NCBI RefSeq assembly: GCF_037975245.1 | Contig: NC_092565.1 | Coordinates: 11,154,499-11,218,498 of the forward strand | DNA: 64,000 bases | Source of the DNA: Apostichopus japonicus | Taxonomy: Eukaryota > Echinodermata > Holothuroidea > Aspidochirotida > Stichopodidae | Reading direction: 5' to 3' | In this document: positions 1-29,756 of the stretch, piece after piece | Position numbering within the stretch: position 1 is the first letter of the stretch | How the letters are laid out: every line of letters starts with the position of its first letter | Program-made: the position numbers and the translations under genes | Notes under the pieces: model-generated | What the model was told of the DNA's origin: nothing | What the model saw: the letters and a program-made list of their open reading frames with translations, nothing else | The model's database searches: none

Positions 1-650
1 CCGAATTTGAACATTTTCTTTATCGTGTGTCCATCTGGTGTCAACTTCGGGACAGTGTGACGCCGGCATAAAATGCTGTGGGTTCGTGGACAACTCTGAC
101 ATCCACAGGGGGTCCGTGAGGGGATAAAGTTAGGGAAACCCTGCTAAAGAGAATTTCGACGTATTTAGATCATTCAATAGGAAGGAACAGGAGTACACAC
201 ATGAGGTACGGATGTGAACATTAAAAATGAGGGAGATAACATTTATGTCACGAAGGTTTACACACCATCAAGAACACTGCTCATTCATTTCGAAGCTTTA
301 CAAAATTCAAGTAGAATATTTGTATAGACATTCATATTTGGGATTTCAACTATGACGGGGATGGGTGGAGGGGGAAGAGGTTGGCGTGAAAGTTAGGGGA
401 CCAAATTTGGAAAGGTTCAGGCCTATAGTCATGGAAACGTGTGAATGTCTCCTTACAATGAAAAGCAAAGCTTTACATCATTCCTTTATGAGCAAGAATC
501 TTCATACTATTTTGTTTCAACATAAAAGATGAAAATGGTAGTTTTTTTGTACGAAAATGAAGAAATTCTTGGAAAACAAAGCGAAAAATATGGAACGCTT
601 CACGATTTTGCGTGTCATCCTTGCGCTAAGAATCGCCAGATCTTAGAGCT

Positions 651-775
651 ATTTTAGAGCAATGTTAGAACAGATTTGACCAATGAGGTATCTCCGTTGT
701 TCTAAAATATATAATTTTAGATCAATGTTAGAACACGTCTCAGCCAATGACAATACAGTTTATATTTTTAGAGCA
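651..775 (+). repeat. Two tandem CCAAT-containing repeat units
   Basis: Two adjacent units (about 651-708 and 714-775) share an ATTTTAGA(G/T)CAATGTTAGAACA start followed about 8 bases later by CCAATGA. The first unit closes with TTGTTCTAAAAT, which is complementary to its own start, so it can fold into a stem-loop presenting CCAAT. A third, related unit lies at 1667-1723. They could be promoter elements or decayed MITE copies; the sequence does not decide. Confidence 0.5.
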
Positions 776-1666
776 TGACGTCAGTGCACCTGAAATTCTG
801 AATACAACTTTTAGTTGCGAACAACTTGCGCTGCAGAAACTGTTATCTCTTCAAAATAATACAATTACAACGCGAATCGTAGACCAGTCTCCTGAAATTC
901 GTAAAGGATTGATGGACATATTAACATCGCCGGTAAGAAATAGTCTAAAGGATTTGACAAAGTAGATATATTCTGTATCTTTCTGTATCGTCACTAGGCA
1001 GGTATTTATCACAACGTTACTTTACTGATATAACGGTTCCGCGAATTTGTAATTAGACTTGGCCTACTGACACTGTACTGTGTCGGTTGCAGTACTGAGC
1101 AAGGCCTTGTTGTTATTAATTTATTATTAATTGCACTTAATTGTTAATGCTAACTGCTAACGTAAGTCCATAAAAGCCAACTCTGTAGTTCAGTATGTTA
1201 AACAAACCGAGGTTGGCTTATAATATTAACAAACAATACAGCACTCGATTTTATTATACAATTGGTGTTGTCACATTTGCATTTCCTAGGCAAATAATAA
1301 TTTCGGGAGAACACATGCGATTAAATTCCTCATTCGGTCGGTCGGTTGGTTCATTGATCGTCGCTCAACATAATAGCATAGGCTAGTGCTATGGTTACAT
1401 GATGTAGGTAATACTGAATGAAATTGGCATAAAAAATACTTGACAACATCGGTATTCTGCCCGGAGGCCGGAATGCCAAATATCATTGTTTGAGCTATGC
1501 TTTTTACTTTAATAAATGAGCTATCAGAGCATCTCCTCAAAGTGATGATATATCCACCCCCACTCCTCCACTACGGTATTTTAGCCACTGGTTAAGACAA
1601 TGAATTCCTTCGTTACCGTATCTATTTTATTTTCTTTCAGCCCACTAGCTTCATTATGCCTCTGAA

Positions 1667-1723
1667 ATTTTAGAACATTTTAAGACGATTTCAACCAATC
1701 GCATTCATGGTATGTTCTAAAAT
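1667..1723 (+). repeat. Perfect 12-bp inverted repeat around a CCAAT box
   Basis: ATTTTAGAACAT (1667-1678) and ATGTTCTAAAAT (1712-1723) are perfect inverted repeats around a 33-base loop that contains CAACCAATC. This is the best preserved of three related units; the other two are at 651-775. It resembles a very short MITE or a conserved promoter module. Confidence 0.55.
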
Positions 1724-2540
1724 TGAACAGTAGTTATCTGTATCACTATCAAGTGCTGTGACATTGAATCTTTGGTCTTTTTCTCTCACTAGTTGGGACT
1801 CGAGTGAATTACAGATATTGCAGTTTATTTCCAGTTTTCTGTGTGTTTTATTGGATTGAAGCTACCATTACTGAAAAGGAGTGTCTTTGTAAGTTTTTAA
1901 ATGAAAACAAAGTAATTTTCAGAATGAAATATGACGCAAACTTTTACAGTAGCGTCTATTCAAATAAGCACTGTATGTTTCGCATACTAGTTGCGCGAAT
2001 GATCGTTAATAAAGCAGTTTATAACCAGTTTGGGCTCTGTTACTTCCCTTTTATAGTGCAACGTTTATGATCGATTGGTAAAGTCTTTTGAACTTAATTA
2101 TTTAATGATATGAATGATAGTCCACGGCTTCATCTATTATGTATAAAACACGGCATGGCGAGCACTTGAACAGAAATTGAAATAATATTCATTTGATGAT
2201 AGGCTCATAGGCCCTATCTCAATTGCAAATTAGTCTTTTTATGCACCAGTTCCAACAATTACAGGTGAGTCATTGTGCCAAAGTGATGGTAAATATAAGG
2301 AAAAGTAGGTAGGGCCTACATCATGGGCTGCATGACTTTCCATATTACACAGTAGGCTTGTCAAATAAACCTATTTTGAATAGCTTTCCTTTATTCCAAA
2401 CCCTGTTAGCATTAAGGCTTTTTACAGTAAGGCTTTCTAGAATTTTTTTTCATAAAATAATTTCATCCGTTAATGGTTCATTGGTATTGTGTAAGAAGTC
2501 AAATATACATTAATCATTTTTCAATCAATTTGATTTATCA

Positions 2541-2629
2541 AGAGGCAAACAATCGAATTAATTTATGCTAAAGAGCACAACGTGATGTTATGGATCGAAT
2601 CCTGTTGGTTGGACGTGCTCATTGCCTCT
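2541..2629 (+). repeat. Hairpin-forming flanking repeat, upstream copy
   Basis: An 89-base unit with two nested stems: AGAGGCAA (from 2541) pairs with TTGCCTCT (to 2629), and GAGCAC pairs with GTGCTC inside it. The loop contains GTGATGTTATGGATCGAAT. A closely related copy in the same orientation lies 3' of the gene at 9111-9204. Between the copies one inner stem pair has changed from A-T to G-C on both sides, which suggests the fold matters. It lies about 115 bases before the start codon of the transposase-like gene. Confidence 0.6.
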
Positions 2630-2745
2630 AAGTCTGCTTTCTCTTTGATGGACTGTACATGTCTGTGACATTTTACAGTTTGAAATTTCTTATTTTTTTC
2701 TTCATTTTACAGGCCTGAAGATTGTGTGACAATTTTTGTCTAATC

Positions 2746-5700
2746 ATGCCTCCAAGAAAGCCAACATTTCGCTTCCACAACAAGTTGACAGGGGACTTGA
2801 TGTTGGCTTGTACTGAAAGAGCAAGACAGGTAGCAGAGATTGTTAAAAGGCAAAAAAGCAGTGGTATTTTTGGAAAACAACTGTCGAAGGAAGAGGTATG
2901 TTTAAATATAGCTTAAAACCAGACTGGATGCAGTCAGTGCATAGTCTGCCAACTCTGCACAGAAATCAATAACAATAAAGGTATTTGCAGATTTTTTAGC
3001 AGCATGAGATAAAAACTATACAGTATGGGGGCACAGTACTATTCGTCTTTGAAGTTGGAGGGGTTATGAATCATTACTGTCTATGGGACATTAAAATCTT
3101 TAGTCATTTTGAAGAAAAGCCTGGGTTTTCTAACTGTAATAATTAATAACCGACTCTTCCAGCTGGAGAACTGTACTGATACCTAAATGCTTTGTAATCA
3201 AATGCTTAATCACATTGAAGTCTTGCCACCTTAATGATTAGATGTTATTTTTCTTTTAAAAGGTCGAGAGAGAGGCAAAGAAACGTCTCTTGCAAACTAG
3301 TAAGGGTGATCCAGAGGATAAAGAATGGGTGCTCAGCCTGAGCTGTCTACAATTTGGCAAGTACCGTGGCAAACCATTCATTTGGCTTGTGGAAAACGAT
3401 GTTGGTTGGGCAGTAATGTTGATGGCTGACCATGAGGCGGTTCGGGAAAAACCATGTTCGACATCCCCAGATGCACAGTGGGACAACAAAGAAGCACTGT
3501 ACAGGTAGTAATTGCAAATTTAAAATCATCCAATATGAATAAAGGGTATAAATGATGGTCACTGCAGAGTCAATATGTACATTGTTATTTATTTTAATGC
3601 TTTTCTCAAGGTATGTCAACATGTTCCCAGAGATGAGGAAAGCCATAAAAGCTCGCAGGGACAAAAGGCCACAACCTAAGCTGAGTACGACAGAAGGAGA
3701 TATCCTTGTTGGTTTTGGACCCTACAGCAATCTCTCCAGACAAGCACTTTTTCTGTCAACTGAAAAAGAACATGAAAGCTATGTAAAGGGTATGCTGCGA
3801 CACCCTGTGACTTACCCTGGCGGAAAGCTGGACATGTTGAAAAAGTACCTGATTAAGATGCAGGCAGAGCAAACCGCTGAGGATGAAGCAATGATCAGGG
3901 TTGCTGAGAAAGTAGAAAAAAGCTACATTATGGAAAGAGGTACAGTATACCATTTGTTTTAGATTCAGATGCATGTTTATTATTTCATTTAACTGATTTT
4001 CATCTCCTTCATTTTCCCCTTTCATTTAGAGAGATGTCACCATATACCCATAGCTAGCTATAGATTGCACTTTATTCAAATATTAGAGAAATAGGAAAGC
4101 ATAATTCACATAAAATCACTTAATCATATGTGTTGTTGGTTCCTATATTATAGCCTTATGGATCATTAATAACACAGGTGTGGATGAAAAGTTAAATTTT
4201 CATTGCATGTATTATTTATCACACATTTTGCATGAATATATCAATGATTGGGGCTTAATTTGTTGAAGCCTGAAAAAAAATCATGTTTACATATATTTTT
4301 TTGTCTCCTTTTTTAAAAATTTATTTTGCTTAATCTGACTTGTACAGATTCCCAGCCTAACAAGGGGAGTTCTACTGTGGTGTCACCACCCACACTACTA
4401 TCTGAGTCATCTGAAGTTCCTTCTTGTAGCTCAACCACTCAGTCGGCACAACACCATTTGCCACTTCCGTCAACAGTGAGTGTTTCACCATATCAGGAGT
4501 GGGATCCCTCCAAAACACCAAAACAGAGCACCATAACAGAGGTAAGGCTTTAATTTTAAATCTTTACATCTTTAAAATTGTAAATTGTTGTGAAAGAGTT
4601 TCTGAATGGTGTAAGTTGTTACAAGCTTTAGTATGGTACCGTTTTACTTTTCTTTATAGCATGCCCTTCCTAGTACATGGAAACTGGTTCTACCCGTTGA
4701 ACAGCAAGCATGGATAGCCAAGGCGCTGTTCAAAGTCAATGCCAAAAGTGGGAAGCAGGAGATGACCTCGAACCTGCAGATGTGGTGGTATCCACCAGAG
4801 CCCATCAAAATTCACAGTAACCCACCAGCCTCACCTGCTCCGTATTTCCTCATGCCGTTCTTCCTTTGGGCGCCGCAAAGAGTTTGGGGCCTTCATCTGG
4901 GTCTGCGCTGTACCGCTGAATGTCAAGCAAAGCAGGATGAGAATAAAAAGGTTACCATTACTTTCATGGGGATTCACATAGTATTTTTCTTGGGGGGGGG
5001 GGGGGATATGTAACAATAATGATTTTTTTTTGTCATGAACAGATGTATCTGACCCGAGCTGGTCTCTATCGAACTGTGAGAAGGGTACTTGATGTTGATG
5101 GATGGTACTACATGGGCACAGAATACCTCGAATGCAAGTTTTGCAAGCGTAAATTTGCAGGTTGGTCGAACTTGGTACTGGACCAACTGGACAGGGGGCG
5201 CCGAAGCTTCTTTCCAGCTATACTGACATATAGGTAAGCAATGCAGTTAGTTGCAGTTATGCATTTCATAAATCTTGACAATGGGGTACAGTTACTGTGA
5301 GGACATGGTGTCTAGAGTAATTTATTTTATTTTTCAGGTACTCCTGTGATATGAAGGTGGTCCGGCTTCTCCGTGAACGAACTCTGGGTAACTCCTCTAC
5401 CAAGGTTCAGAAGCAAATTCTCGAACAGCACTCGGAAGTCTATCTTCAAAGAGTCTTGCAATTTTTGCAGGCAAGAGAACCATTCCACACGAAAGCAGAG
5501 AAAGGAATGTTGAAGATAACAGCTCCTGCAAAAAACATCCCATTCATGCAACCCGTGCCAGCAGCACCATGGTTTCTGGCTGTGTTCGTCAGGGATGTTA
5601 TGACACGTCTGGATGAAGTGAAGGCAAAGATCACTTCAACATACGGAACAGTCTTGAAACTGGATTCTACTAAAAAGGTGAGCATCACTTCAGTTTCAAC

Positions 5701-8700
5701 ATAAACGTACACAGTCTAGGAAATATTTCGGATATATTCAATAATTTATATTTACATTTTCAGATCACAAAAAAGCTGGCGGGTAAAGCTGCAGGCACTG
5801 CATCTTGGTGCACAAATATTGGAAATGAGCATGGGCAGGTGCTTATGTCTGTCATGACAGATTCAGAGGGAGAAGGTCTCCTAGACATGGCAACAGGGCT
5901 GATGCAACGGTATCGACTGGCAAACGAGATGCCACCACCAAAGTTGTTGTATGTTGACCGTGGTTGTTGCCTTTGCACTGGGAATTATTCCAAGCTGAAG
6001 GAGATGTTCCATGAATGGAGTGATCTTTTCATACGGCTGGATATCTGGCATTTCTTACGTCGATTTTCTCTTGGCTGCACGTCACAGTCACATGCTCTCT
6101 ACCCAGCCTTTATGTCTCAATTGTCTGCCTGCATTTTTGAGTGGGACGCTGCAGATTTAGCCCAGCTACGACTTGCAAAGGAAGCAGAACTGGGTGCGAG
6201 TGGTGTCTGGAGTCTCGAGAAACAGAATGTAGCCTTGCACATCACTAAGAAGGAGCTGCAGCTGCACTGCAGGCGACGTACTCGAGGAACTGAAGACACA
6301 ACACGTCTCATCAAGGAGGTTATAGATGTGTTTAGTTCAGAGAGGGGTAAAGATACCATGGGCATTCCTCTTCTACACCCTGATTCTATCCAGATGATAT
6401 GGGATGAGCAGCAGCGCCACGTGCAGTGCATCCAAGATCCGGAGGATCCCAGTATCCAGCTGTACACTCAGACAGGTTCGCTAGTGAAAGGTGGGCAGAG
6501 GCTTCCTGTGTACCGATGCGCTAGAGGGTCCACTTCACTAGAGTCATTCCATCTGCACATTAACCGCTTCATTCCAGGTACATTGTAAATCCATTTATCA
6601 TCTGAAAATTAAATGCTTCACCCCAAGTATATTGAAAGCCCATTTATCATCTACATGTTAACGGCTCTTCTCAAGGTACATTGTCTTCAACATTATCAAC
6701 AGTCATCAACACCGTCAAAGATATTAATTATCACAATTAAATATATAATCTTTCAGGAACTACAGCCAATGCCATGCACTTCCAAGCATACCTTCTTGAG
6801 GGCATTGTACGATGGAACGAAGATCGCGCGTTCTCTGCACTTCAAAGCAGTGGAGCCAGGACTCATTGCTACAACAGCGAATTGAGGCACGAGGTTAACC
6901 GGGTCAACAAGATCGTGTATGGTACCACCTTCGACCAGATTTACCAAGATCCTGCCAGGTACACAGGTGAGAAAATTGGCATTGAGTACCTGTACAGCCA
7001 AACAGGTAAGAATTGGAAATCTGCCAGGCTTGACCCGGATGAACCAGAAGACCTGACAGATGTCCTGGATGATGAAGGCTTTGAAGAACAACCTGGAGAG
7101 GACGACCCGACCATCTACTCTCCTTTCAACAGTCAGCAACAAGAACCACCAGGGACTTCACATGAACACACCTCCAGTTCTCTTAAAGGTGAGGAGTACT
7201 TGTTTATTTATTTATTGCAGGGCATCCATTATAATCAATTACTTGAATAATATTTATTAATGGAGTTTTTCTTTAGTAGATTCAGTGGAAGAAACCAGGT
7301 CACCTTCAGTGCCTGGGCAATCTAGTGCCCAGCCAGATGCAAGCAGTGCTTCCCATCACCATTTAACTCTACTTGACACCGCCAGTCCTACAACACAAGT
7401 TGTGAGTACTCATTGTTACTTTAAATTGAATAATCTTTGCACCTCACTCTTTCCCAGGTGTCACCATATTTTTCTACATTCTCTCTCACTTACATCCGCA
7501 TTAATTCATTTTTTTCCCCACAGGCTATAGGGCCCTCTGGACTGTTTGGCTGGAAACAGATCCAAGATATTGGAGAAGTGCTCTTCAGACTGCATGATGT
7601 CCCTGTTCTGACAGAGTCTGCTGTGGACACCATCATACACCTGTGGAAGAGGCTTCCTGGTGCATTGCAGAATTCAAGAGTGTTGTATCCGTCACGGTAC
7701 AGGGATGATGCACATCACACTGGAAGGTTCATGAAGAAGAAGCCAGCAACGTCACACAGACAAACCGTTATACAAGGCACGGTTAGTCTCAGAAGGTAAG
7801 AAAGTGTAATTTACAGTGAGGATCCTGTAACAATATAACCTTGATTATTTTTACAGCATAAAATAAAAGCAATATCTTGATAATTGTCAATTGTTTCAGA
7901 GCGATGGTAGGTGGAAATTCAGGACCAGCAACATCGGTGGATGCCAGCCCACTTGTTGAGGCTATTTGTCTTAAACTGGAGTCCATCTGCCACTCTTCAA
8001 AAAAGATCAAGGGAAAGAACACCATATCCAGATGGAGGCTGATCCTGGACAAGTACCATCACATCAGGAATCTGGTGACATTGCATGACAGACTCATGGC
8101 TACAACAAATCTACAGTTGTATGAACTGAACCAGACGACCCTTCTTACTTGGTAATATTTCATACCAGTTATCAATTTCTTTGCATAGGTAACACCAATT
8201 ATGTTGCCAGGCTTGTTTGTACCATTGTTTTTTTTATGTGTATCCAGGTGGAATTCCAGACAGAAGAAATTGGAGAAGAGGGTGCTGACCCAAACCCTGC
8301 CACCACCTGCTACTATGGAGGCATCAACATCCCTCCCTCCTCCTCGTACACTCCTGCCAAAACCATCCACGGCTCCTCACTCAGAGCCTCATGAGTTTCC
8401 TTCAAGGCCTAATGTCCCTCGGCCGTCACACATCACCTCTCCTCCAACTAGTTGTCCGGTTGCTCTGGTAGCTGACGCCCCTCAATTCAAACTCCAGATT
8501 ATACAGTCAAGTTCTGTACCACCATCAATTCCCAGGACCACCCTGTACTACCAGAAGAAAAGAGCCTTGGAGGATGAGCAAACTGGGACCTCCAAGAGAA
8601 GGACTTACAACAGGAAAAGCTCCTTCAACAGATGCAAGAACTGCCAATTACCAAAAACAAAGGAGTTTGGTCACAGCCGACACATTGGGACGAATGGTTT

Positions 8701-8791
8701 GGATTCATACTGCCCAGCAGTAGAGGGTAAAGAGTTTGGTAGTAAGGAATCCTGGATGGAGGCACGAAAGAAGATCAACCCTTCAAAATAG
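2746..8791 (+). CDS. DUF6729-like / DDE transposase-type protein, 13 coding exons
   Basis: Coding exons: 2746-2895, 3263-3504, 3611-3939, 4348-4541, 4660-4950, 5043-5233, 5338-5677, 5764-6577, 6757-7188, 7277-7401, 7524-7795, 7900-8151 and 8248-8791. All phases join without a stop, giving 1391 residues. The first ATG (2746) follows an in-frame stop within the same exon. In order the protein has an FGKYRGKPFIWLVENDVGW motif (residues ~90-110), a DUF6729-like region with FFLWAPQRVWG and a CxxC pair (C433, C436), then a core that reads as an RNase-H fold. That core contains LKLDSTKK (D575), KLLYVDRG (D644), LDIWHF and STSLESFHLHINRF (E839), so D575/D644/E839 are the likely catalytic triad. The C terminus has a probable zinc ribbon (C1340, C1343, H1353, C1366). 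Family knowledge: large intron-bearing proteins like this are common in fish and marine invertebrates. Whether this is an active transposon or a domesticated gene is open; the intact frame and flanking hairpins fit a young element. The donor after 4950 (GTTACC) is weak. The exon at 7277 could start at 7280 instead. Confidence 0.85.
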
Positions 8792-9110
8792 TGCTTGACC
8801 AGTTTGGTGGGTATTTTTCAAAATCTATTTACCTGCCCATATAATCATATATGCCCCCATATTCCCCAAACCACATATTTACGATTATTTTTCGATTTCC
8901 GGCCGGGTCATAGTAAGGTGGGTTTTTCATCCAAGAGCAATCTATGGTTTTCCCATCTGAAATGACTTTCTAAATTGAAAATATTCCAAATTTGAGCTAA
9001 AATGTAAGCCACCCGACATGTAAGTTGTAATTCATAAGCCCTTGCGGGTTTCTCCCACATTTGTGGTCGCTTAAGGTCGCTGATGATTATTATTCTTATT
9101 TAATCATTTC
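8792..9110. other. 3' flank of the transposase-like gene
   Basis: About 320 bases between the stop codon and the downstream hairpin repeat. This is probably 3' untranslated sequence. I see no clear AATAAA signal and no further exon. Confidence 0.4.
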
Positions 9111-9204
9111 AAAAGGCAATCAGTCAGATACGTATGTATACTAAAAGGGCACAACGTGATGTTATGGATCGAATCCTGATGGCTGAGCGTGCCCATTGCC
9201 TCTT
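9111..9204 (+). repeat. Hairpin-forming flanking repeat, downstream copy
   Basis: Second copy of the 89-base unit at 2541-2629, in the same orientation. The outer arms AAGGCAAT and ATTGCCT and the inner arms GGGCAC and GTGCCC are complementary. The 30 bases from GCACAACGTG through CGAATCCTG match the upstream copy almost perfectly, while the stem ends vary. The unit lies about 320 bases past the stop codon, so the pair brackets the gene. Confidence 0.6.
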
Positions 9205-9350
9205 TTCACTATCAATTATTGGGGTTTCTTTATATATCAATTTTTTGTTTGCAGTTGCCTGGCAACGTACCAAGGCCTAGACTTATCATTCATGCATACT
9301 GCCCTCGCTGGGCTTTTCTTCACCTTTTTTAATCTTTTTTTTTTTATTCG

Positions 9351-9389
9351 CGGGCGGGAAGATTGCGTGACTTTTTTTGCGCAGGGGCC

Positions 9390-9431
<42 letters not shown>

Positions 9432-9446
9432 CGCCGAAGCGAGCAC
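9351..9446 (-). ncRNA. U6 snRNA-derived sequence with altered 3' third
   Basis: Read on the minus strand from 9446, the first ~70 bases match metazoan U6 (GTGCTCGCTTCGGC..., the ACAGAGA box, the AGC triad region and CCCCTGCGCAA) with one difference seen. The sequence then departs: the internal stem-loop continuation is replaced by an A-run, GTCACGCAA is kept, and the 3' end is unlike U6 and runs into an A-rich stretch instead of a T-run terminator. A TATATAT lies 25-31 bases upstream of +1 (9471-9477), the usual place of a U6 TATA box. The 3' change argues for a retroposed or decayed copy, but the promoter-like TATA leaves a transcribed variant possible. Confidence 0.8.
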
Positions 9447-13945: not shown

Positions 13946-14681
13946 TGTAATATTGTGTCGAGCCCGGCTCCTCCGATAGTAAAACTATATCGGGACTCGC
14001 GATAGAAAGGTACTGGGATGTCTTGATGCCGTATTTACGCCTCTTCAGGAGATGTCTCGAACGGAAGAAAACAATGACTTCACACAAAAAACAATTTGAC
14101 GAGATAGGATTTGATTTGATGATTCGGTATAATTTCTTCTCTGTCGATTCTCTTTACAAACAAAACTAAATTACAATGATTTGACTTGACTTGACTCCGT
14201 CAATTAAACAATTAGCGGCAGTGATGAACTTTCGGCGGAGTGATAAATTTGCTGACCAAGTGATAAATTTGCTGACGGAGTGCCCAAACTTTCGGCCTCC
14301 TTTTACTTTTAAACCTTACTTCCCTAAAATCTCACTGCGCATAATCAGAAGGCAGCCAATGAACTGACCATCCTGTATTAACTTAATGATATAAAAATAA
14401 TTGTGCTGGCACTGATCTGCCCTGATTGGTTGGGAGTTTGGAAGTCCATCCCCTTTCTTATGGAAACTTCCATACCACGTGAGAGAACCTTCTCGAATGT
14501 TCCACAGACATAATGGAATCTATTTTGGGAAAAGGCCCTGTACCAAGATTCAATAAGATAGTTAAAAACTTCTCGTGGGAAAACTGAATCCATGACCTAG
14601 ATAAATACATAAGAGGCCCGTAAGGTGTCTCGATGGAGTGTTTCGGTAACATCAAAGAGATGGTATCACTATTTCATAACA
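13946..14681 (-). repeat. 3' LTR of the outer element
   Basis: 736 bp with TGT...ACA ends, paired with 31911-32646 by equal length and sequence. On the minus strand it is preceded by a purine-rich tract (GATTGAGGGGGA, from 14693 to 14682), the usual start of plus-strand synthesis in this family. Confidence 0.9.
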
Positions 14682-15962
14682 TCCCCCTCAATCTTTTAAA
14701 ATTTTTGGATACTCCAAAATTTTAACATCATACCGCTTTAACTTATCATTATCTCAAGAAGGTAGAGTACTGTAAGCACATTCACTAATATTCATTGACT
14801 TCAATAAATGGTCTTCATGTATCTCAAAGGTTAACATCTTGGTTACGAATTATTAAAAATGATCATATGTTATATACATTGACACTATTCTCCATGAAAA
14901 TATTGTGTACCTCTTTAATATTGATGACATCATATGATGTAATCTAAAAAAAAAAAAAATATCATTAAGATATCTTAAAGTTACATGACAAAGCAAAATA
15001 TGCAGTATCTCTTACAAAATACATTTATGCATTTCATACATCAATAATACATTTATATCAAAAGTGAAATCATGCCGTGAATTGGGGAGAGATCAGAGAA
15101 TACTAGACTTATAGTTATCTCTTAACTGAACAGAACACCTTAGCGTTCCATAAAAAAATTCGTATTTTAAAAAAGAACTTTAAAATATTACAAACTCATT
15201 TAAAAAACCTCCTCTTTAATGAAGGCATAGTTTCAAAACTGCTTTGAAACCTTGTGAATCATATACATTCACTTCAAGAAAATCAACAAAATGTGACTCG
15301 ATAGCATGGTGACCCTAGGTATGCACTCCGAAATGATCTAGTAAAGTACCAAAGTACTAGATATTCGATACCATAAAAGAGACCCCATAGACTATGACAT
15401 CAACAAATCTTTCTTCAAATTTACATAATACTTAACATCTTGTCTTTTCAACTTCATGATGAAATTTACTTTTGCATGAATAATTGAGGAAAAGAAAATA
15501 TATACATAAATTCCTCAAAACATCTATACTTTTCATCTATACATCTATACAAAACATCTATACAACATAACTGTTGCTGTAAGCAAAAGTTGCATATCAC
15601 CAATGCTGTCTTCTGAATAGCCTTCAACATAACTTCAATGATGCAATGTAAATATCCTTAAAATATTTCTCAATATATGAAAACCCATGTTGCTAATATT
15701 CCGGATATGTTCTAATTGCCGGGTAAACGTTTGAACGAATTCATAAGGAGAAATAAGGTATACTCATTACACATTTGTTACAAAAGATGAAACTAGGTCA
15801 CTTGGTGGCGTTTTTAACAATAAAGCTTATATTGTTACACCATACAGTACAATGACTTCCACTTAATAGGTATGCAGGTAATTGCAATGACGCATTCCAT
15901 TCATACAATCGTGGGTAAAACACCTGTTCATCTGAACTTAAACAATTATGCAGTTATACATT
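14682..15962 (-). other. 3' untranslated internal region of the outer element
   Basis: About 1.3 kb between the end of pol and the polypurine tract. It is AT-rich, has no supported open frame, and is closely matched by 22622-23852 in the inner copy. Confidence 0.7.
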
Positions 15963-18900
15963 CTAACCATATAATGTTTGCAACATCCTGCCTGGATTGC
16001 CTGTAATGTTCAATCCCTTTTCATGGAGAAAATTCATTATTTCCTCTGTGTTGGAATATTTTCCTACATTCCACCAAAAATCATGACTCTTAAAGCCTGA
16101 TGGAAAACATGGTGTCTGATAGGTGACCAGAACCTGTAATTCACCCAATTTGTATCGAGCACGTTGGACTTTCATGTCTCCCTGTGGAGCATTTGCAAAA
16201 ACTTTCTTTTGCCTTAATATGCTATCTTTCATGGAAGGATATGGAAGTGCTAATCCTTCATTATGTGCTCTATTCTCTAAAAAGGATGCAACATTCATTG
16301 GCTTAGTGGTCATAAGACACATGACATGATCTGAAGTTACCCCTGGCAAAATGTTACCAAACTCATCATGAAACTCAATATGTGCATCTTGCATGACATT
16401 AACATTTTCTGCATTAGAAGTGTTACTACTCAAAACATTTCTCATTCGTGCAAGCTTTTCACTTGATGAACCCTTTGTTTTCAAGACCTGACGCAATTTC
16501 TGAATGTTAGTGATATTCTTAGTTTCAGAAGATGCTCTTACAAAACATGGTTTAAGCCTGTTATAATTGAATACATCACTAAGAATTTCTCCTTTGAGAG
16601 TGGCCAACAAATAATGAGTCCTGTCTAAAACTTGATGGATCACTAATGGTCCACACCATTCTGCAGCAATTTTGCGAGAGTTCGCAGTCAAGGAGGAAGA
16701 CGTTGGCTTATACAGATACACTAATTGACCCGTTGAATAAATTGCACCTTTGTCCAGTTTTGCACTTATCTTAACATTTTGAGCATCTTGTTGCTTCTTT
16801 TGTAAGACCAACATTACCCTAGACAAATGATCAAATCGTTTCTTTAACAATGCGGCATATTCTCCATGAGATTGTGATAATCCTGCCATTGGATTGAATG
16901 ATAAATTTGTAAGATTTGGTGGCTTACGTCCAAATGCAAGTTCAAATGGGCTGTAGCTACCTAACTGAGGAGAGGAAAATGTGTTATATGCATAGGCTGA
17001 TGTTGGGACAAATCGTACCCAATCCGTACCAAACTGATTTAAGTTCACTTTGAGGAAATTTGAAAGAGTCTGAATGTGTCTTTCAACCTGTAAGCTTCCA
17101 TGATTGCTTACACTGATGAACTTTTGTTCAATGCCTAAAGCTTTACTTAAGAGCTCCACTAATTTTCCTGTAAGAGAAGCTGCCGCATCACTTATGATAC
17201 AAGACGGTGGACCAAAAGTTGTAACTACCCTCTGCAATAATGCTTCACATATTGTTTCAGCATCAAGAGTCTTAAGAGAAACACATACAACAAATCTAGT
17301 GATCTCATCACAAACAACCATCAAATGTTTAAATCCTGTAGCCGTTGTGGGCATAGTCTTGAAATCCAGACTAAGTCTGTCAAAAGGACGATAAGAATCA
17401 GGAATGCGAGCATGATATTGTCTCAATTTGTCCGGTTTCTTACGGAATTCTTGACAACGGAGACATGCCTGAATATAATTACTGATGCGTTGAAACATAT
17501 TGCGCAGATAGAAATGCTGTCTCATGGTCAAATATGTACGCATTACACCCTGATGATTACTTAACAAGTCATCATGATATCGAGATATTATCTGTTCTAC
17601 CAGAGTCTCAGGTACGACTAACTGAAGAGTCATCTTAGCATCATTAGTCTCATGCAAAAATATCCTGAATAACAAACTATTACATAACAAATAATCCTCT
17701 GCTTGAGAACGAACAGTTCTAGCATGTTTAGCATTACTTGGAATAATGTCATGTGCAAGAAAATCATAAATTGGTTTGTAGTAAGGACAAGTTTGTTGTT
17801 GAATTTGCAACTCTTTTACATCAAAGGGCAGATCATAGTTTTTGATCAGCTTTCCTTGAATTGCCTTCATGACTTTATTCAATTCCTTTTGTTTTGGAAT
17901 GTGCCCTGTAACCAAATGATCAATGTTTGTTATTACTGGCTTTGGCTTAACAAATAATTCTGGTGGTGGTTCTCTGACTACCTCTGGCACTCTATGTCTA
18001 CTCTGATCCACTAATCTTGGCTCTGAAGGTTGAGAAACACTTGTAAAATTTGGCACAACTAATACATCAGGACTATATGTATGTCGATTTTCACTCGGCA
18101 TAGAAATAGTAGGCCTTTGAATATATGTTTCTCTCTTATCATTAGAAAAAACTGGTGTAGTCGTCTTTTGTGACTCAGATTGTGGTCTCTGTGTAACATG
18201 ATCATGTGTTGCCTTAGGAATGGATGTCCTATTAACTCTATTTGTTGATTCTTTGGCTGGGGAATCCTGCTTGGACTCCTTTGTGACTTTATTCGGAAAT
18301 AAATCTGGAACTTTGACTCCCATTGACCTTGCCTTTGACCTTGTCATGATTGGATTAAATGTCTCCTTAGGTGGAGTTGAAAAATCCTCATAAGAACTGA
18401 CCTCTTGAGCAACCTGATCTATTTCAGAGTGAAATTCCTGTGGTGCTCTAGACAAATAATCTGCCAAAACCAATTCTGAGCCTTTTTTGTAACCAACCTG
18501 GAATGTATATTCTGACAATTTGAACAGAAGCTTACGTAAGCGTGAAGTTGCTGGTTCTTGTTTTGATTTAAACAATTCAACAATGGCTGAGTGATCAACA
18601 TATGCCTCAAATTCTACATTTTGCAATAAATGTTTGAATGCTGTCACATTAATAAATAGACCCATCATTTCTAATTCAGTTACACTATACCTCTGACATG
18701 CTGGTGGTAATATCTTAGAGTAATATGCAATAATATTCTCTTTGCCATTAACTCTTTGTGTCAGGTATGATCCTGTTGCTACTCGTGATGTGTCGCTATA
18801 TAATACAAAACGACCATATTTCTGTGGCATATGCAGTATAGGTGGATTACACAACAACTCTTTAATACTTTGAAATGCACACTGATGTTCCCCTGTCCAT

Positions 18901-20831
18901 TTAAATACCTTTCTCTTACGACTCAAATGATGTAATGGTCTCAATAGTGCTTGAATATTTGGGAAAAACGAAGCCACATAATTAACTGCACCTACAAATC
19001 GTCTTACTGACTTAACATTGTGTGGTTTCGGTGTGTTCCTGATTGCTGCACATCTGTCATGTAAAGGTTGGATACAAGCCTCACCTTCTGGGGTTATTGA
19101 GAGCAAATGTCCCATGTATTGGACTGAATTTTGGAAAATGCTACACTTTTTCGGAGAGATTTTCAATCCGTTGTCCATTAAAACCTTAAAAATTGCCTGT
19201 AGGTGTTGTTTGTGAGATCGTTTGTCTGCACTGTACACAATAATATCGTCATGATGAGCAATACAGAACTTATTTGAATTTGGGATCGTTGCCAAAATAT
19301 CATTAATTTGCGACTGAAAGATCGCTGGAGATAAATTCAATCCCTGTGGTAAGCGTTTATAATAATAATGCTTTCCTCCATGAAATGAAGCAATACCTGT
19401 ATATTGTTGTGCATGAACACTGAGTGGCAGACAGAAGAATGCAGACTTTAAATCTAGAACACCCAAAATTTTGGCTCCAGAGTACCCTATGGTACGGATA
19501 GTCTCATTCAGTAATGGAAATGGGTGATTGAGACGTTTTATCCTACTGTTCAAGTAGCGAAAATCTGTGACAACCCTTTTGTCTTTTGTTCCCTTCTTTG
19601 GAATTAGGAAAACCGGTGAGGTATAAGACTGATGTCCTACCGCTAAGATTCCTAATCGCACTAATTTGTTAAGCTCACTGGCGACAATGACTTTGTCCTC
19701 ATCTGAAAGTCTATAGGGACGTATGTAAAATGGCTCATCATTAGTAAGAGTAATATCAGCCTCATAATTTGGACAGTGAGATAATTCACCATAAAGAGAA
19801 AATGCATCTCTATGTGAGTCTAGAAATTCATAAATGCTCTCTGTTTCTGAAGCATTCAGAATACTTTGTTCCAAATTAATGTTATCTCTCATGATTTCCT
19901 GTTCGGATTTGGAAACCAGGGGATCATCGGCTGTCAAATGTGGATATCGATGTAAATTATATCGTGTAATTTCATCACGATTCTCTTTAGAGTTAGATTT
20001 GGTTCGAAAAAGAGACGGTTTTTCGATGTCTCTCATGACGTTTAGAAAATCTAGAGAATCAGTAGGTATGTCTTCTGTGACCGTAATGATATCTGCTAAA
20101 TCTAAACGAGCCACTGTGCGAGAAGGATGCAGACAAAATTTCTGGTTACCCATGTTCCTTAGTAGAATCTTTGTTCTACCTTTATGCATTTTCACTAACA
20201 TTCGTGAAGGACACATACGAGATATTAGAGGAAACGGTTTAATAACCACATCTGCATTTCGTGCATATAGTGGAAGACGTCCCTGTACAGTAATGTATCT
20301 CTGCTGACCTGGATAAATAACAAATCTCTGCACTGGCCTAAGGAAAACTTTGGCTCGTTTAACTTTAAAACAGTTTGTGGTAAAATCCAAAGATCCATTC
20401 AATTCCTTCAGAGTTTGACTACCTAATATTAAGTCAATACCTGTCAGGTTTGCAGCAATTAAAGCAGAAAGCTGAAATTCATGACCTTGAATTTTGACCT
20501 GAAATGTTATCGTGCTATACGCATGAATAAACTGACCATTACCCAACTTTAGGTTTACTACATCAACTGAGACTGGTTGTATAGAGGATAAATACTTTGA
20601 ATTTTGCACTGTAGAAGAAGAAATGATAGAGCGTGTCGCTCCACTATCAAACAACAATGAAATTCCTTTACCATCATGTAAAGTACATCTTACAAAATTA
20701 CGTGTGTCCAGTTGAATATCCACATTACGGTCGTTCCCTGTATATCTAGAACTAGGAATATTACTATTCTTCCAAATATTATTTGTTTTACGTTTCGATC
20801 GTCCCTTACTTGGTACTTTGTCTGGAGTCAC
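15963..20831 (-). CDS. pol: Ty3/gypsy pol polyprotein of the outer element
   Basis: One open frame of 1622 residues. Domain order on the minus strand is aspartic protease (LLFDSGATRS near residue 60), reverse transcriptase (PVFLIPKKG, KILGVLDLKSAFF, RLPQGL), RNase H (LYSDTSRVATG), zinc-binding and catalytic integrase (ACLRCQEF, LSLDFKTMP, IISDAAAS), then a long C-terminal extension. Protease-RT-RNaseH-integrase order defines Ty3/gypsy; I do not assign a clade. It starts downstream of gag in a different frame. It is nearly identical to the inner copy's pol. Confidence 0.9.
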   Translation of the reverse strand: MTPDKVPSKGRSKRKTNNIWKNSNIPSSRYTGNDRNVDIQLDTRNFVRCTLHDGKGISLLFDSGATRSIISSSTVQNSKYLSSIQPVSVDVVNLKLGNGQFIHAYSTITFQVKIQGHEFQLSALIAANLTGIDLILGSQTLKELNGSLDFTTNCFKVKRAKVFLRPVQRFVIYPGQQRYITVQGRLPLYARNADVVIKPFPLISRMCPSRMLVKMHKGRTKILLRNMGNQKFCLHPSRTVARLDLADIITVTEDIPTDSLDFLNVMRDIEKPSLFRTKSNSKENRDEITRYNLHRYPHLTADDPLVSKSEQEIMRDNINLEQSILNASETESIYEFLDSHRDAFSLYGELSHCPNYEADITLTNDEPFYIRPYRLSDEDKVIVASELNKLVRLGILAVGHQSYTSPVFLIPKKGTKDKRVVTDFRYLNSRIKRLNHPFPLLNETIRTIGYSGAKILGVLDLKSAFFCLPLSVHAQQYTGIASFHGGKHYYYKRLPQGLNLSPAIFQSQINDILATIPNSNKFCIAHHDDIIVYSADKRSHKQHLQAIFKVLMDNGLKISPKKCSIFQNSVQYMGHLLSITPEGEACIQPLHDRCAAIRNTPKPHNVKSVRRFVGAVNYVASFFPNIQALLRPLHHLSRKRKVFKWTGEHQCAFQSIKELLCNPPILHMPQKYGRFVLYSDTSRVATGSYLTQRVNGKENIIAYYSKILPPACQRYSVTELEMMGLFINVTAFKHLLQNVEFEAYVDHSAIVELFKSKQEPATSRLRKLLFKLSEYTFQVGYKKGSELVLADYLSRAPQEFHSEIDQVAQEVSSYEDFSTPPKETFNPIMTRSKARSMGVKVPDLFPNKVTKESKQDSPAKESTNRVNRTSIPKATHDHVTQRPQSESQKTTTPVFSNDKRETYIQRPTISMPSENRHTYSPDVLVVPNFTSVSQPSEPRLVDQSRHRVPEVVREPPPELFVKPKPVITNIDHLVTGHIPKQKELNKVMKAIQGKLIKNYDLPFDVKELQIQQQTCPYYKPIYDFLAHDIIPSNAKHARTVRSQAEDYLLCNSLLFRIFLHETNDAKMTLQLVVPETLVEQIISRYHDDLLSNHQGVMRTYLTMRQHFYLRNMFQRISNYIQACLRCQEFRKKPDKLRQYHARIPDSYRPFDRLSLDFKTMPTTATGFKHLMVVCDEITRFVVCVSLKTLDAETICEALLQRVVTTFGPPSCIISDAAASLTGKLVELLSKALGIEQKFISVSNHGSLQVERHIQTLSNFLKVNLNQFGTDWVRFVPTSAYAYNTFSSPQLGSYSPFELAFGRKPPNLTNLSFNPMAGLSQSHGEYAALLKKRFDHLSRVMLVLQKKQQDAQNVKISAKLDKGAIYSTGQLVYLYKPTSSSLTANSRKIAAEWCGPLVIHQVLDRTHYLLATLKGEILSDVFNYNRLKPCFVRASSETKNITNIQKLRQVLKTKGSSSEKLARMRNVLSSNTSNAENVNVMQDAHIEFHDEFGNILPGVTSDHVMCLMTTKPMNVASFLENRAHNEGLALPYPSMKDSILRQKKVFANAPQGDMKVQRARYKLGELQVLVTYQTPCFPSGFKSHDFWWNVGKYSNTEEIMNFLHEKGLNITGNPGRMLQTLYG

Positions 20832-20860
20832 TGTATGATGAGTGCAATCATAAGTGCTCC

Positions 20861-21815
20861 CTACTGAAAATTCTGTGTTGGTACTCTGTTTACCTTAGCC
20901 TCCATTTCATGGCTTAGGCGAATTTGGCAATATTGTGCAAAATGACCTCGATTTTGGCAGTAGTAACATGTAATTGAAGGATTAAAACATGGTAACCTTC
21001 TCCTGTTATCATTTTGACCTGTCCTAGGACCACGAGAATCACGAGAACTATATCTTTGCCTCATATCTTTTGGATTGTCTTGCGATTCTGACCTACGTGA
21101 CTGATCAAACTTGGTTTCTAACTCCTGAATTTTATTACACAACTCGTGTATCTCAGAAGATGCAGAAATAGTAGGAGTCTGAACAGAAGACGCTTTGTCG
21201 TGCATTGCCATAAATAGTTCGGAAGAAGCTGTGGGTTGACTTTGGATTTGTAAGTCAAAATAACATTGGACTTTCATGACCAAATCTGCAATTGTTGCTT
21301 GTGGTGTTGCAGACATTAACACTGCTGAGCGGCATTGAAAAGGCAGGGTCGAGATGAATTTATCTCTAATTTGGTCCTCGCCAAAGCTTAATTGTGAGCA
21401 CTGCAGCTTTGGAAATTTTGGCCAAATGAGCTTGAGCTGTATCACCTGGCGTATAGCTTAATGCGTGAAATGCCTGTGATTTAGCGTAGGAAGAAGTGCC
21501 TGGACTGAAACGAGCAAGGAATTGCTTGCGAAGATCAGCACTAGTTGAAAAATTTTTGTTTTCAATCCAGAGTCTGGCTTGGCCTTTAAGTGTTCGCTTA
21601 AATATGCGACATATTTCATTAAATTCTTCCGCTACAGGGGTGGTTTGGGACGGCAATTTATGCACCTCTAAATAATCTTCAAATCCCAAATAATGAGCTT
21701 CGGCTAAATCTGCATCAATTACATCGCCCTGAAATCGTGATGGCAAAAAATCAGTGGGCCTATGTTTCTGCATAACATTAACAGAGGTCGAAGTTTCCTG
21801 TTCACTGACGGACAT
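20861..21815 (-). pseudogene. gag: gag region of the outer element (about one break)
   Basis: Gag-like capsid region followed by a CCHC zinc knuckle (CYYCQNRGHFAQYC). It closely matches the gag of the inner element but is not a single open frame, with about one break. It belongs with the pol at 15963-20831. Confidence 0.8.
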
Positions 21816-21838
21816 TATGCCACATACAATTAGGCTAG

Positions 21839-22621
21839 TGTAATATTGTGTCGAGCCCGCTCCTCCGATAGTAAAACTATATCGGGACTCGCGATAGAAA
21901 GGTACTGGGATATCTTGATGCCGTATTTACGCTTCTTCAGGAGATGTCTCGAACGGGCGAAAACAATGAGTTCACAGAAAAACAATTTGACAAGATCGGA
22001 TTTGATTAATGATTCGGTATAATTTCTTCTCTGTCGATTCTCTTACAAATAAAACTAAATTACAATGATTTGACTTGACTTGACTCCGTCAATTAAACAA
22101 TTAGAAAGAGTGATGAAATGGTGACGAAGCAACGAACTGATCACGGAGCGCTGACGGAGTCATAAATTTGCTGATCAAGTGATAAACTTTGCTGACGGAG
22201 TGATAAATTTTCTGATCAAGTGATAAACTTTCGCCCTCCTTTTACTTTTATACCTTACTTCCATAAAATCTCACTGCGCACAATCAGTAGGCAGCCAATG
22301 AACTGACCATCCTGTATTAACTTAATGATATAAAAATAAGTGCGCTGGCACTGATCTGCCCTGATTGGTTGGGAGTTTGGAAGTCCATCCCCTTTTCTAT
22401 GGAAACTTCCATACCACGTGAGAGAACCTTCTCGAATGTTCCACAGACATAATGGAATCTATTTTGGGAAAAGGCCCTGTACCAAGATTCAATAAGATAG
22501 TTAAAAACTTCTCGTGGGAAAACTGAATCCATGACCTAGATAAATACATAAGAGGCCCTGTAAGGTATCTCGATGGAGCTTTTCGGTAACATCAAAGAGA
22601 TGGTATCACTATTTCATAACA
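21839..22621 (-). repeat. 3' LTR of the inner element
   Basis: 783 bp, TGT...ACA, paired with 30426-31208. It is longer than the 736-bp LTRs of the outer copy, with extra AAGTGATAAA/GACGGAGTGATAAA-type repeats in its middle. A TATAAAAG lies on the minus strand near 22246-22253. A purine-rich tract abuts it on the internal side (22622-22633). Confidence 0.9.
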
Positions 22622-23852
22622 TCCCCCTCAATCTTTTAAAATTTTTGGATACTCCAAAATTTTAACATCATACTGCTTTAACTTATCATAATCTCAAGAA
22701 GGTAGAGTACTGTAAGCACATTCACTAATATTCATTGACTTCAATAAATGGTCTACATGTTACGAATTATTAAAATGATCATATGGTATATACATTGACA
22801 CTATCTCCATAAAAAAAATTGTGTACCTCTTCAATATTGATGACATCATATGATGTAATCTAAAAAAAAAAAACATCATTAAGATATCTTAAAGTTACAT
22901 GACACAGCAAAATATGCAGTATCTCTTACAAAATACATTTATGCATTTCATACATCAATAATACATTTATATCAAAAGTGAAATCATGCCGTGAATTGGG
23001 GAGAGATCAGAGAATACTAGACTTAGTTATCTTTTAACTGAACAGAACACCTTAGCGTTCCATTAAAAATTCGTACATTAAAAAAGAACCTTAAAATATT
23101 ACAAACTCATTTACAAAACCTCCTCTTTAATGAAGTCATAGTTTCAAAACTGCTTTGAAACCTTGTGAATCATATACATTCACTTCAAGAAAATCAAGAA
23201 AATGTGACTCGATAGCATGGTGACCCTAGGTATGCACTCCGAAATGATTCTAGTAAAGTACCAAAGTACTAGATATTCGATACCATAAAAGAGACCCCAT
23301 AGACTATGACATCAACAAATCTTTCTTCAAATTAACATAATACTTAACATCTTGTCTTTTAAACTTCATGATGAAATTTACTTTTTCATGAATATTTGAG
23401 GAAAAGAAAATATATACATAACTTCCTCAAAAGATCTATACTTTCATTTGCTTCGATAACTGTTGCTGTAAGCAAAAGTTGCAAATCACCAATGCTGTCT
23501 CTAAATAGCCTTCAATATATAACATAAATGATGCAATGTAAATATCCCTAAAATATTTCTCAATATATGAAAACCCATGTTGCTAATATTCCGGATATGT
23601 TCTAATTGCCGGGTAAACGTTTGAACGAATTCATAAGGAGAAAAAAGGTATACTCATTACACATTTGTTATAAAAGATGAAACTAGGTCACCTGGTGGCG
23701 TTTTTAACAATAAAGCTTATATTGTTACACCATACAGTACAATGACTTCCACTTAATAGGTATGCAGGTAAATGCCATGACGCATTCCATTCATACAATT
23801 GTGGGTAAAACACCTGTTCATCTGAACTTAAAGCAATATGCAGTTATACATA
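22622..23852 (-). other. 3' untranslated internal region of the inner element
   Basis: Counterpart of 14682-15962 in the outer copy. It is AT-rich and without supported coding capacity. Confidence 0.7.
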
Positions 23853-26800
23853 TTAACCATATAATGTTTGCAACATCCTGCCTGGATTGCCTGTAATGTT
23901 CAATCCCTTTTCATGGAGAAAATTCATTATTTCCTCTGTGTTGGAATATTTTCCTACATTCCACCAAAAATCATGAGTCTTAAAGCCTGTTGGAAAACAT
24001 GGTGTCTGATAGGTGACCAGAACCTGTAATTCACCCAATTTGTATCGAGCACGTTGGACTTTCATGTCTCCTTGTGGAGCATTTGCAAAAACTTTCTTTT
24101 GCCTTAATATGCTATCTTTCATGGAAGGATATGGAATTGCTAATCCTTCATTATGTGCTCTATTCTCTAGAAAGGATGCAACATTCATTGGCTTAGTGGT
24201 CATAAGACACATGACATGATCTGAAGTTACCCCTGGCAAAATGTTACCAAACTCATCATGAAACTCAATATGTGCATCTTGCATGACATTAACATTTTCT
24301 GCATTAGAAGTGTTACTACTCAAAACATTTCTCATTCGAGCAACCTTTTCACTTGATGAACCCTTTGTTTTCAAGACCTGACGCAATTTCTGAATGTTGG
24401 TGATATTCTTAGTTTCAGAAGATGCTCTTACAAAACATGGTTTAAGCCTGTTATAATTGAATACATCACTAAGAATTTCTCCTTTGAGAGTGGCCAACAA
24501 ATAATGAGTCCTATCCAAAACTTGATGGATCACTAGTGGTCCACACCATTCTGCAGCAATTTTACGAGAGTTCGCAGTCAAGGAGGAAGACGTTGGCTTA
24601 TACAGATACACTAATTGACCCGTTGAATAAATTGCACCCTTGTCCAGTTTTGCACTTATCTTAACATTTTGAGCATCTTGTTGCTTCTTTTGTAAGCCTA
24701 ACATTACCCTTGACAAATGATCAAATCGTTTATTTAACAATGCAGCATATTCTCCATGAGATTGTGATAATCCTGCCATTGGATTGAACGATAAATTTGT
24801 AAGATTTGGTGGCTTACGTCCAAATGCAAGTTCAAATGGGCTATAGCTACCTAACTGAGGAGAGGAAAATGTGTTATATGCATAGGCTGATGTTGGGACA
24901 AATCGTACCCAATCCGTACCAAACTGATTTAAGTTCACTTTGAGGAAATTTGAAAGAGTCTGAATGTGTCTTTCAACCTGTAAGCTTCCATGATTGCTTA
25001 CACTGATGAACTTTTGTTCAATGCCTAAAGCCTTACTTAAGAGCTCCACTAATTTTCCTGTAAGAGAAGCTGCCGCATCACTTATAATACAAGACGGTGG
25101 ACCAAAGGTTGTGACTACCCTCTGCAATAATGCTTCACATATTGTTTCAGCATCAAGAGTCTTAAGAGAAACACATACAACAAATCTAGTGATCTCATCA
25201 CAAACAACCATCAAATGTTTAAATCCTGTAGCCGTTATGGGCATAGTCTTGAAATCCAGACTAAGTCTGTCAAAAGGACGATAAGAATCAGGAATGCGAG
25301 CATGATATTGTCTCAATTTGTCCGGTTTCTTACGGAATTCTTGACAACGGAGACATGCCTGAATATAATTACTGATGCGTTGAAACATATTGCGCAGATA
25401 GAAATGCTGTCTAATGGTCAAATATGTACGCATTACACCCTGATGATTACTTAACAAGTCATCGTGATATCGAGATATTATCTGTTCTACCATAGTCTCA
25501 GGTATGACTAACTGAAGAGTCATCTTAGCATCATTAGTCTCATGCAAAAATATCCTGAATAACAAACTATTACATAACAAATAATCCTCTGCTTGAGAAC
25601 GAACAGTTCTAGCATGCTTAACATTACTTGGAATAATGTCGTGTGCAAGAAAATCATAAATTGGTTTGTAGTAAGGACAAGTTTGTTGTTGAATTTGCAA
25701 CTCTTTTACATCAAATGGCAGATCATAGTTTTTGATCAGCTTTCCTTGAATTGCCTTCATGACTTTATTCAATTCCTTTTGTTTTGGAATGTGTCCTGTA
25801 ACCAAATGATCAATGTTTGTTATTACTGGCTTCGGCTGAACAAATAATTCTGGTGGTGGTTCTCTGACTACCTCTGGCACTCTATGTCTACTCTGATCCA
25901 CTAATCTTGGCTCTGAAGGTTGAGAAACACTTGTAAAATTTGGCACAACTAACATGTCTGGGCTAAATGAAGGTCCATTTTCACTCGGCATAGTAATAGT
26001 AGGCCTTTGAATACATGTTTCTCTCTCATCAGTAGAAATAACTGGTGTAGTCGTCTTTTGTGACTCAGATTGTGGTCTCTGTGTAGCATGATCACTAGAA
26101 TGTGTTGCCTTAGGAATGGATGTCCTATTAACTCTATTTGTTGATACTTTGGCTGGGGAATCCTGCTTGGACTCCTTTGTGACTTTATTCGGAAATAAAT
26201 CTGGAATTTTGACTCCCATTGACCTTGCCTTTGACCTTGTCATGATTGGATTAAATGTCTCCTTAGGTGGAGTTGAAATATCCTCATAAGAACTGACCTC
26301 TTGAGCAAACTGATCTATTTCAGAGTGAAATTCCTGTGGTGCTCTAGACAAATAATCTGCCAAAACCAATTCTGAGCCTTTCTTATAACCAACCTGAAAT
26401 GTAAATTCTGACAATTTGAACAGAAGCTTACGTAAGCGTGAAGTTGCTGGTTCTTGTTTTGATTTAAACAATTCAACAATGGCTGAGTGATCAACATATG
26501 CCTCAAATTCTACATTTTGCAATAAATGTTTGAATGCTGTCACATTAATAAATAGACCCATCATTTCTAATTCAGTTACACTATACCTCTGACATGCTGG
26601 TGGTAATATCTTAGAGTAATATGCAATAATATTCTCTTTGCCATTAACTCTTTGTGTCAGGTATGATCCTGTTGCTACTCGTGATGTGTCGCTATATAAT
26701 ACAAAACGACCATATTTCTGTGGCATATGCAATATAGGTGGATTACACAACAACTCTTTAATACTTTGAAATGCACACTGATGTTCCTCTGTCCATTTAA

Positions 26801-28727: not shown

Positions 28728-28756
28728 TGTATGATGAGTGCAATCATAAGTGCTCC

Positions 28757-29725: not shown

Positions 29726-29756
29726 TGACGGACATTATGCCGCACACAATTAGGCT

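Follow-up and report, generated by a model that had tools for sequence, protein, structure and literature searches.

A Dada DNA transposon of the U6-targeting type within a split U6 snRNA gene of the sea cucumber Apostichopus japonicus

Introduction

The Dada superfamily of DNA transposons was described in 2013 and extended in 2022. In the parts of the 2013 description drawn on here (PMC3706591), elements of the Dada-U6 group are placed between U6 positions 1–70 and 65–104 and are flanked by a 6-bp duplication, GCGCAA or GCGAAA; they are without terminal inverted repeats and carry 9-bp subterminal repeats, which are found at the same distance in U6 and are said to be common to all Dada-U6 families. 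The Dada element reported there has a length of 8,963 bp and a transposase of 1,402 aa with the catalytic residues D567, D635, and E811, a DxxH motif, the cysteines C389, C394, C429, and C432, and zinc fingers in its N- and C-terminal parts; in zebrafish the transposase gene is oriented opposite to U6 (PMC3706591). The copy number of the target is presented in the same parts as the authors' view of a main constraint on the choice of target by Dada, not as a defining feature (PMC3706591). Chordata, Arthropoda, Mollusca, and Annelida are the phyla from which Dada-U6 is listed in the portion of the 2022 Dada paper used here. Domesticated Dada-U6 genes exist as well: the dDada genes of Cypriniformes are described, in the text drawn on, with often mutated D residues and with DxxQ.

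A second superfamily to be considered is KolobokP (Kojima 2022), which is described in the available part of that work with long terminal direct repeats and a TTAA duplication, and which is listed there from A. japonicus. In the passages available from a paper touching on sea cucumber transposable elements, Dada is mentioned twice, as a superfamily, and no report of Dada from echinoderms was found in the literature looked at, much of it in part, with Repbase outside its scope.

Ends of the element and insertion site

In a preliminary description of the window (the whole stretch of 64,000 nucleotides that was analysed), positions 2541–9204 had been taken for an element of about 6.7 kb. The ends were located instead at positions 627 and 9376, within a U6 snRNA gene that is split by the element. 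An Rfam scan of the window matched U6 positions 1–68 at 9377–9446 on the minus strand (RF00026, 70.2 bits, E = 1e-15), and a genome-wide U6 family search recovered the 3′ part of U6 at 584–627, also on the minus strand (RF00026, 34.6 bits, under the gathering score of 44). Relative to a whole U6 gene on contig C2, the 5′ part of the interrupted gene (9377–9446) comprises positions 1–70 and the 3′ part (584–626, left duplication included) positions 65–107, each with 100% identity. Both halves lie on the same strand and each carries GCGCAA, which reads TTGCGC on the plus strand of the window. This target-site duplication, with its left copy at 621–626 and its right copy at 9377–9382, matches the published Dada-U6 duplication. 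Excision of 627–9376 together with one duplication yields a sequence of which 111 out of 111 bases are identical to the C2 gene.

The flanks of the C2 gene and of the split gene were also compared: 171 of 200 columns are identical upstream and 55 of 61 downstream, and none of 300 shuffles reached either score. Because these flanks are homologous yet diverged, the C2 locus is read as a duplicated U6 gene standing in for the empty site, and not as the same site in another animal. Unlike their flanks, the two halves of the split gene show no drift, and this suggests a recent insertion relative to the duplication of the U6 gene. Of the features that the preliminary description had proposed to look for, target duplications (TTGCGC) are present at the true ends, and an empty site is provided by the C2 gene.

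From the U6 junctions, the duplications, and the comparison with the whole U6 gene, it is regarded as almost certain that 627–9376 (plus strand, 8,750 bp) represents a U6-targeting Dada DNA transposon of autonomous type, situated on the opposite strand of the U6 snRNA gene. A duplication of 6–7 bp at a fixed site within a small RNA gene, which characterises Dada, is seen here as the 6-bp TTGCGC in U6; insertion at U6 positions 65–70 with duplication of GCGCAA or GCGAAA, which characterises Dada-U6, is seen as well, and the transposase gene is oriented opposite to U6. The element is a new member of this known superfamily, an assignment made by comparison of site, duplication, and residues with published descriptions, Pfam naming only DUF6729. 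The earlier suggestion of a little-described superfamily was apt insofar as Dada is a DDE transposon without classical inverted ends, and failed insofar as the direct repeats are not its boundaries. For such an element, it is the split target gene that reveals the ends, and not repeats beside the transposase gene.

An element bounded by the two units of about 90 bp as terminal direct repeats, comparable with KolobokP, would account for the presence of two direct units on either side of the gene; KolobokP, moreover, shares the C/DxxH signature with Dada, has direct repeats, and is listed from A. japonicus in the part of the source available. This reading is nevertheless considered extremely improbable. 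Beyond the units on either side are found the copies of the 6-bp duplication (621–626 and 9377–9382) together with the halves of one U6 gene, the duplicated sequence is TTGCGC and not TTAA, and the units measure about 90 bp versus around 450 bp in one of the two KolobokP length classes given in that part. In addition, the first 200 bases of the element (627–826), which lie far outside the 5′ unit, recur whole or mostly at three places in the genome, all of them on contig C1 and within about 100 kb. With ends at 627 and 9376, neither the long terminal direct repeats nor the TTAA duplication of KolobokP is found at this locus. The position of the U6 junctions and the reach of the related copies refute the units as ends of the element, and other copies are not bounded by the unit.

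Terminal and subterminal sequences

When the two ends of the Dada element (627–9376) were compared, no perfect terminal inverted repeats were seen, as is usual for Dada-U6 and as the preliminary description had stated for classical inverted repeats around its shorter interval. The motif ATCTT occurs near the left end (640–644, plus strand) with an offset of 14 from the duplication, near the right end (9359–9363, minus strand, read from that end) with an offset of 14 from the right duplication, and at the same offset in the uninserted U6 target. This arrangement was reproduced by none of 200,000 shuffles of both ends, the motif having been picked after inspection of the ends. Subterminal repeats of the TTTTAGAGCAATGTTAGAACA type occupy 640–775 on the 5′ side, and a related stretch is found at 1666–1731. 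From the published 9-bp subterminal repeat of Dada-U6, 4/9 letters are retained at the left end and 6/9 at the right, and its distance from the duplication is the published one at both ends; the partial match of the letters counts against a perfect fit to Dada-U6.

Transposase gene and protein

The transposase gene (2746–8791, plus strand) is predicted from the sequence to comprise 13 exons, located at 2746–2895, 3263–3504, 3611–3939, 4348–4541, 4660–4950, 5043–5233, 5338–5677, 5764–6577, 6757–7188, 7277–7401, 7524–7795, 7900–8151, and 8248–8791, and to encode a protein of 1,391 aa. All introns are of the GT–AG type and the sole stop of the open frame is at its end, in line with the complete 13-exon gene reported previously. 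The only Pfam match in the protein is DUF6729 (residues 312–554, E = 2.1e-77), a family for which no paper was found by literature search. The catalytic residues are D575, D644, D672-x-x-H675 (DxxH), and E839. Candidate zinc-finger cysteines in the N-terminal part are C389, C393, C433, and C436, and a candidate C-terminal zinc finger is formed by C1340, C1343, H1353 (or H1356), and C1366; the N-terminal CCCC and C-terminal CCHC zinc fingers of Dada thus appear to be represented, with a spacing a few residues off that in zebrafish.

Conservation was assessed in an alignment of the transposase with relatives within the same genome (14 loci supplied). D575 is conserved in 5/5 aligned rows (4 distinct places); for D644, D672, and H675 the figure is 12/12 rows (8 distinct loci), and for E839 it is 8/10 rows, the other two being one locus seen twice and gapped at this position; the triad D575/D644/E839 put forward earlier is upheld by these counts. 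E865 was also considered as the catalytic glutamate and was rejected, E being present there in 1 of 10 aligned rows. As for the N-terminal cysteines, C389 is found in 5/5 rows, C433 in 6/6, C436 in 4/4, and C393 in only 2/5. It is predicted that the transposase is made and active.

The gene might also be a domesticated, immobile host gene derived from Dada and resembling dDada of Cypriniformes, a class of genes that does exist according to the text drawn on; the finding of only one whole copy in the genome would agree with this. It is held to be very improbable, given that the catalytic D, D, and E and the DxxH motif are intact, unlike the mutated D residues and DxxQ with which dDada is described there, that the ends and the target duplication are intact too, and that undrifted U6 halves between drifted flanks fit a recent insertion.

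The Dada transposon of the window resembles Dada-U6_DR of zebrafish (Kojima and Jurka 2013) in its U6 site with the 6-bp GCGCAA duplication and a transposase opposite to U6, in its size of about 9 kb with about 1,400 aa and many exons, in D-D-DxxH-E at nearly equal positions together with N- and C-terminal zinc-finger cysteines, and, in the absence of terminal inverted repeats, in a subterminal motif whose spacing from the duplication is fixed. It differs from Dada-U6_DR in having 13 exons versus 11, in the partial 9-bp motif, in its echinoderm host, and in the internal direct units of about 90 bp; neither "direct repeat" nor "hairpin" is used as a term in the main text of the two Dada papers (2013 and 2022). 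U6 targeting outside the vertebrates is shared with the Dada-U6 elements of Daphnia, Crassostrea, and Capitella, which belong to other phyla, and the Capitella transposase shares the orientation of U6, whereas that of the window is oriented opposite to it.

Internal units of about 90 bp

Two hairpin-like units lie within the element on both sides of the transposase gene and in the same orientation (plus strand), as first described. The 5′ copy (2541–2629) is located about 116 bp ahead of the start codon and 1.9 kb from the left end of the element, and the 3′ copy (9112–9203) about 320 bp past the stop codon and about 170 bp from the right end. In their best stretch 54/60 bases are identical, including an identical core of 30 bases. 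Since a genome search with the 5′ unit returned the 3′ unit at E = 7.4e-15, the resemblance of the two is not attributed to chance.

When 70 bases of the 5′ unit were compared with the whole genome (671.6 Mb), only the two units matched, a half unit on contig C1 having escaped this search. A pattern of 23 core bases, with up to 2 mismatches allowed, was found at 4 places in the genome, namely in the two units of the window, on C1, and on C15; read backwards, the pattern gave no match in the genome. On C1, the right half of the 3′ unit is present along with the flank downstream of it, and exon-9-like sequence lies on the left; because of this adjacency the place is interpreted as a decayed, internally deleted relative of the element. 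The C15 match (two mismatches, no convincing wider similarity) was considered as a further unit and was taken as chance. The unit is accordingly known from three places, all of them Dada copies and one of them a half unit. This distribution (4 core places in 671 Mb, of which 3 belong to Dada copies) is not that of a common dispersed repeat, which had been raised as a contrary possibility. No other copy retaining the 5′ region 1900–2745 was found in the genome.

The outer ends of both units carry inverted arms, which are perfect over 8 bp in the 5′ unit and would suit two insertions of an independent small element of MITE-like kind with AGAGGCAA/TTGCCTCT ends. Such an origin is improbable in view of the few genome places at which the core occurs, three of them within Dada copies and the fourth, on C15, with no convincing wider similarity. 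Moreover, inspection by eye showed no target duplication flanking the units, and the right half of the 3′ unit is found with its downstream flank in the decayed C1 relative, which indicates that it is old in the lineage.

The stability of folds of the whole units was compared with that of dinucleotide shuffles. On the plus strand, z values of −0.60 (5′ unit) and −0.93 (3′ unit) were obtained, and on the minus strand values of −1.20 (5′ unit) and −2.14 (3′ unit), the last being reached by 3 of 200 shuffles. As RNA hairpins, the units are at most weakly more stable than shuffles, with the 3′ unit on the minus strand alone being unusual. One stem pair differs in a compensatory manner between the copies, being A–T in one and G–C in the other.

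Several identities were tried for the units and rejected: a tRNA-like nature (ARAGORN, 0 genes in the window), a known RNA in the 5′ unit (best Rfam match around it 21.7 bits versus a gathering score of 52), and kinship with the sequence upstream of U6 (shuffle fractions 0.33 and 0.81). The whole-window Rfam scan at gathering scores gave no match to a known RNA for the 3′ unit.

Functional sites kept by selection, whether for transposase binding or as promoter or boundary elements, would be consistent with a 30-bp core that is identical between copies whose arms differ, with the compensatory stem change, with the persistence of half of the 3′ unit in the decayed relative, with the position of the units right beside the gene on both sides, and with the slightly raised stability of the 3′ unit when folded from the minus strand. 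On the other hand, constraint cannot be told from recent duplication with two or three related copies, three of the four folds are ordinary, similarity to the sequence upstream of U6 is lacking, no RNA family match comes near the gathering score (5′ unit scanned), and the 5′ region is retained in no other copy found. Selection for such a function is possible but less likely than not. In this lineage the unit is present as an internal duplication, and it may be a site of regulation or of protein binding next to the transposase gene.

Relatives and U6 genes in the genome

The genome searched comprises 671,581,487 bases in 35 contigs. Contig C35 is mitochondrial, and under the echinoderm and flatworm mitochondrial code AAA is read as Asn at 9 places of its cox1, as would suit a sea cucumber host. 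A search with the transposase protein gave at least 48 matches (33 of 287 candidates scored). Only one whole copy of the element was found in the genome, and the ends given here are those of that copy. Broken relatives of the transposase cluster at C1:11.20–11.27 Mb, a region with U6 fragments, and the C1 stretch of about 100 kb in which the first 200 bases of the element recur also carries 5′ and 3′ fragments of U6. Distant Dada-like genes with about 36–48% identity are located on contigs C10, C12, C16, and C20. No Rfam match to an RNA gene was obtained in stretches near distant Dada-like genes at 7 loci, and no tRNA was detected near Dada-like relatives in 13 loci scanned.

U6 genes were searched for in three ways. 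The family search gave at least 9 matches (48 of 66,793 candidates scored), the C2 gene used as a DNA query gave 8 matches (8/8 candidates scored), and a pattern search with up to 2 mismatches gave 3 matches, being blind to variants on C9 and C23 that carry an extra base. All three agree on a single perfect U6 gene that is whole (C2), a pair of whole variants at 93% on C9 and C23 as far as these could be matched, the split gene, and the fragments on C1. This count is a lower bound, a collapsed array in the assembly being possible, and it is with this qualification that three whole U6-like genes (C2, C9, and C23) are set against the high-copy target constraint proposed by the 2013 authors.

Proposed mechanism

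By analogy with the Dada family, the ends and the target would both be recognised by the transposase. The DDE enzyme, with its DxxH motif and zinc-finger cysteines, would probably recognise the sequence around CTGCGCAAGG and the U6 stretch ATCTTCTCTG (plus strand of the window). The first letters of ATCTTCTCTG recur within both transposon ends at an equal distance, and the transposase may bind the ends and the U6 target via this sequence common to both. The two strands would then be cut 6 bp apart, and joining in of the element would leave the GCGCAA duplication on both sides.

Implications

If the low U6 count is true, the element entered one of few U6 genes, contrary to the view of copy number taken in 2013, and the small number found gives an opportunity to examine whether abundant targets are required by elements of this sort. 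The broader, joint proposition that Dada-U6 persists with a handful of U6 genes, with no need of a large multicopy target, and that the pair of units of about 90 bp serves its own protein or expression, is judged unlikely as a whole. An apparently intact Dada-U6 from an echinoderm adds a phylum to the four listed in 2022 and provides a candidate enzyme for tests.

Repeats within and beside the Dada element of the window

Near its 5′ end, the Dada element contains subterminal repeats (window positions 640-775 and 1666-1731) whose arms are palindromic (TTTTAGA...TTCTAAAA); its transposase may bind to them. Three 49-bp tandem repeats (6550-6696) span the end of exon 8 of the transposase gene and the following intron.

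Elsewhere in the window, two LTR-retrotransposon-like units are arranged in tandem at 13946-32550, with a spacing of about 7.9 kb and an identity of 97-100% across the listed repeat blocks. Each carries a stop-to-stop pol frame on the minus strand (15966-20894, 1,643 aa, in the first unit; 23856-28790, 1,645 aa, in the second), and reverse transcriptase, RNase H, integrase and aspartic protease were assigned to the first frame with Pfam. A 300-bp repeat is present in four copies (at 14286, 22225, 30812 and 32251), as if the elements shared LTRs or had recombined at them.

Dada relatives and U6 fragments elsewhere in the genome

More distant Dada-like genes were found at loci L047, L020, L031, L037 and L038, on contigs C12, C16, C20 and C10; their catalytic motifs are conserved.

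A second U6 3′ part, on contig C1 (locus L010, 1501-1578; C1:11160305-11160382), ends at the same GCGCAA as at the insertion in the window. A further GCGCAA follows after 11 bases, and AAGAT lies 13 nt beyond it; the arrangement looks like the product of two successive Dada-U6 insertions or like an excision remnant. U6 5′ parts were located at L007 (from 1501; C1:11231658) and L008 (from 1501; C1:11235103). In both, the first bases are altered and the U6 part stops at GCGCA, beyond which one new sequence, TAAGTTGG(A/G)GCATAATCCC, is shared; this new sequence is probably the terminus of another, related subfamily of Dada-U6.
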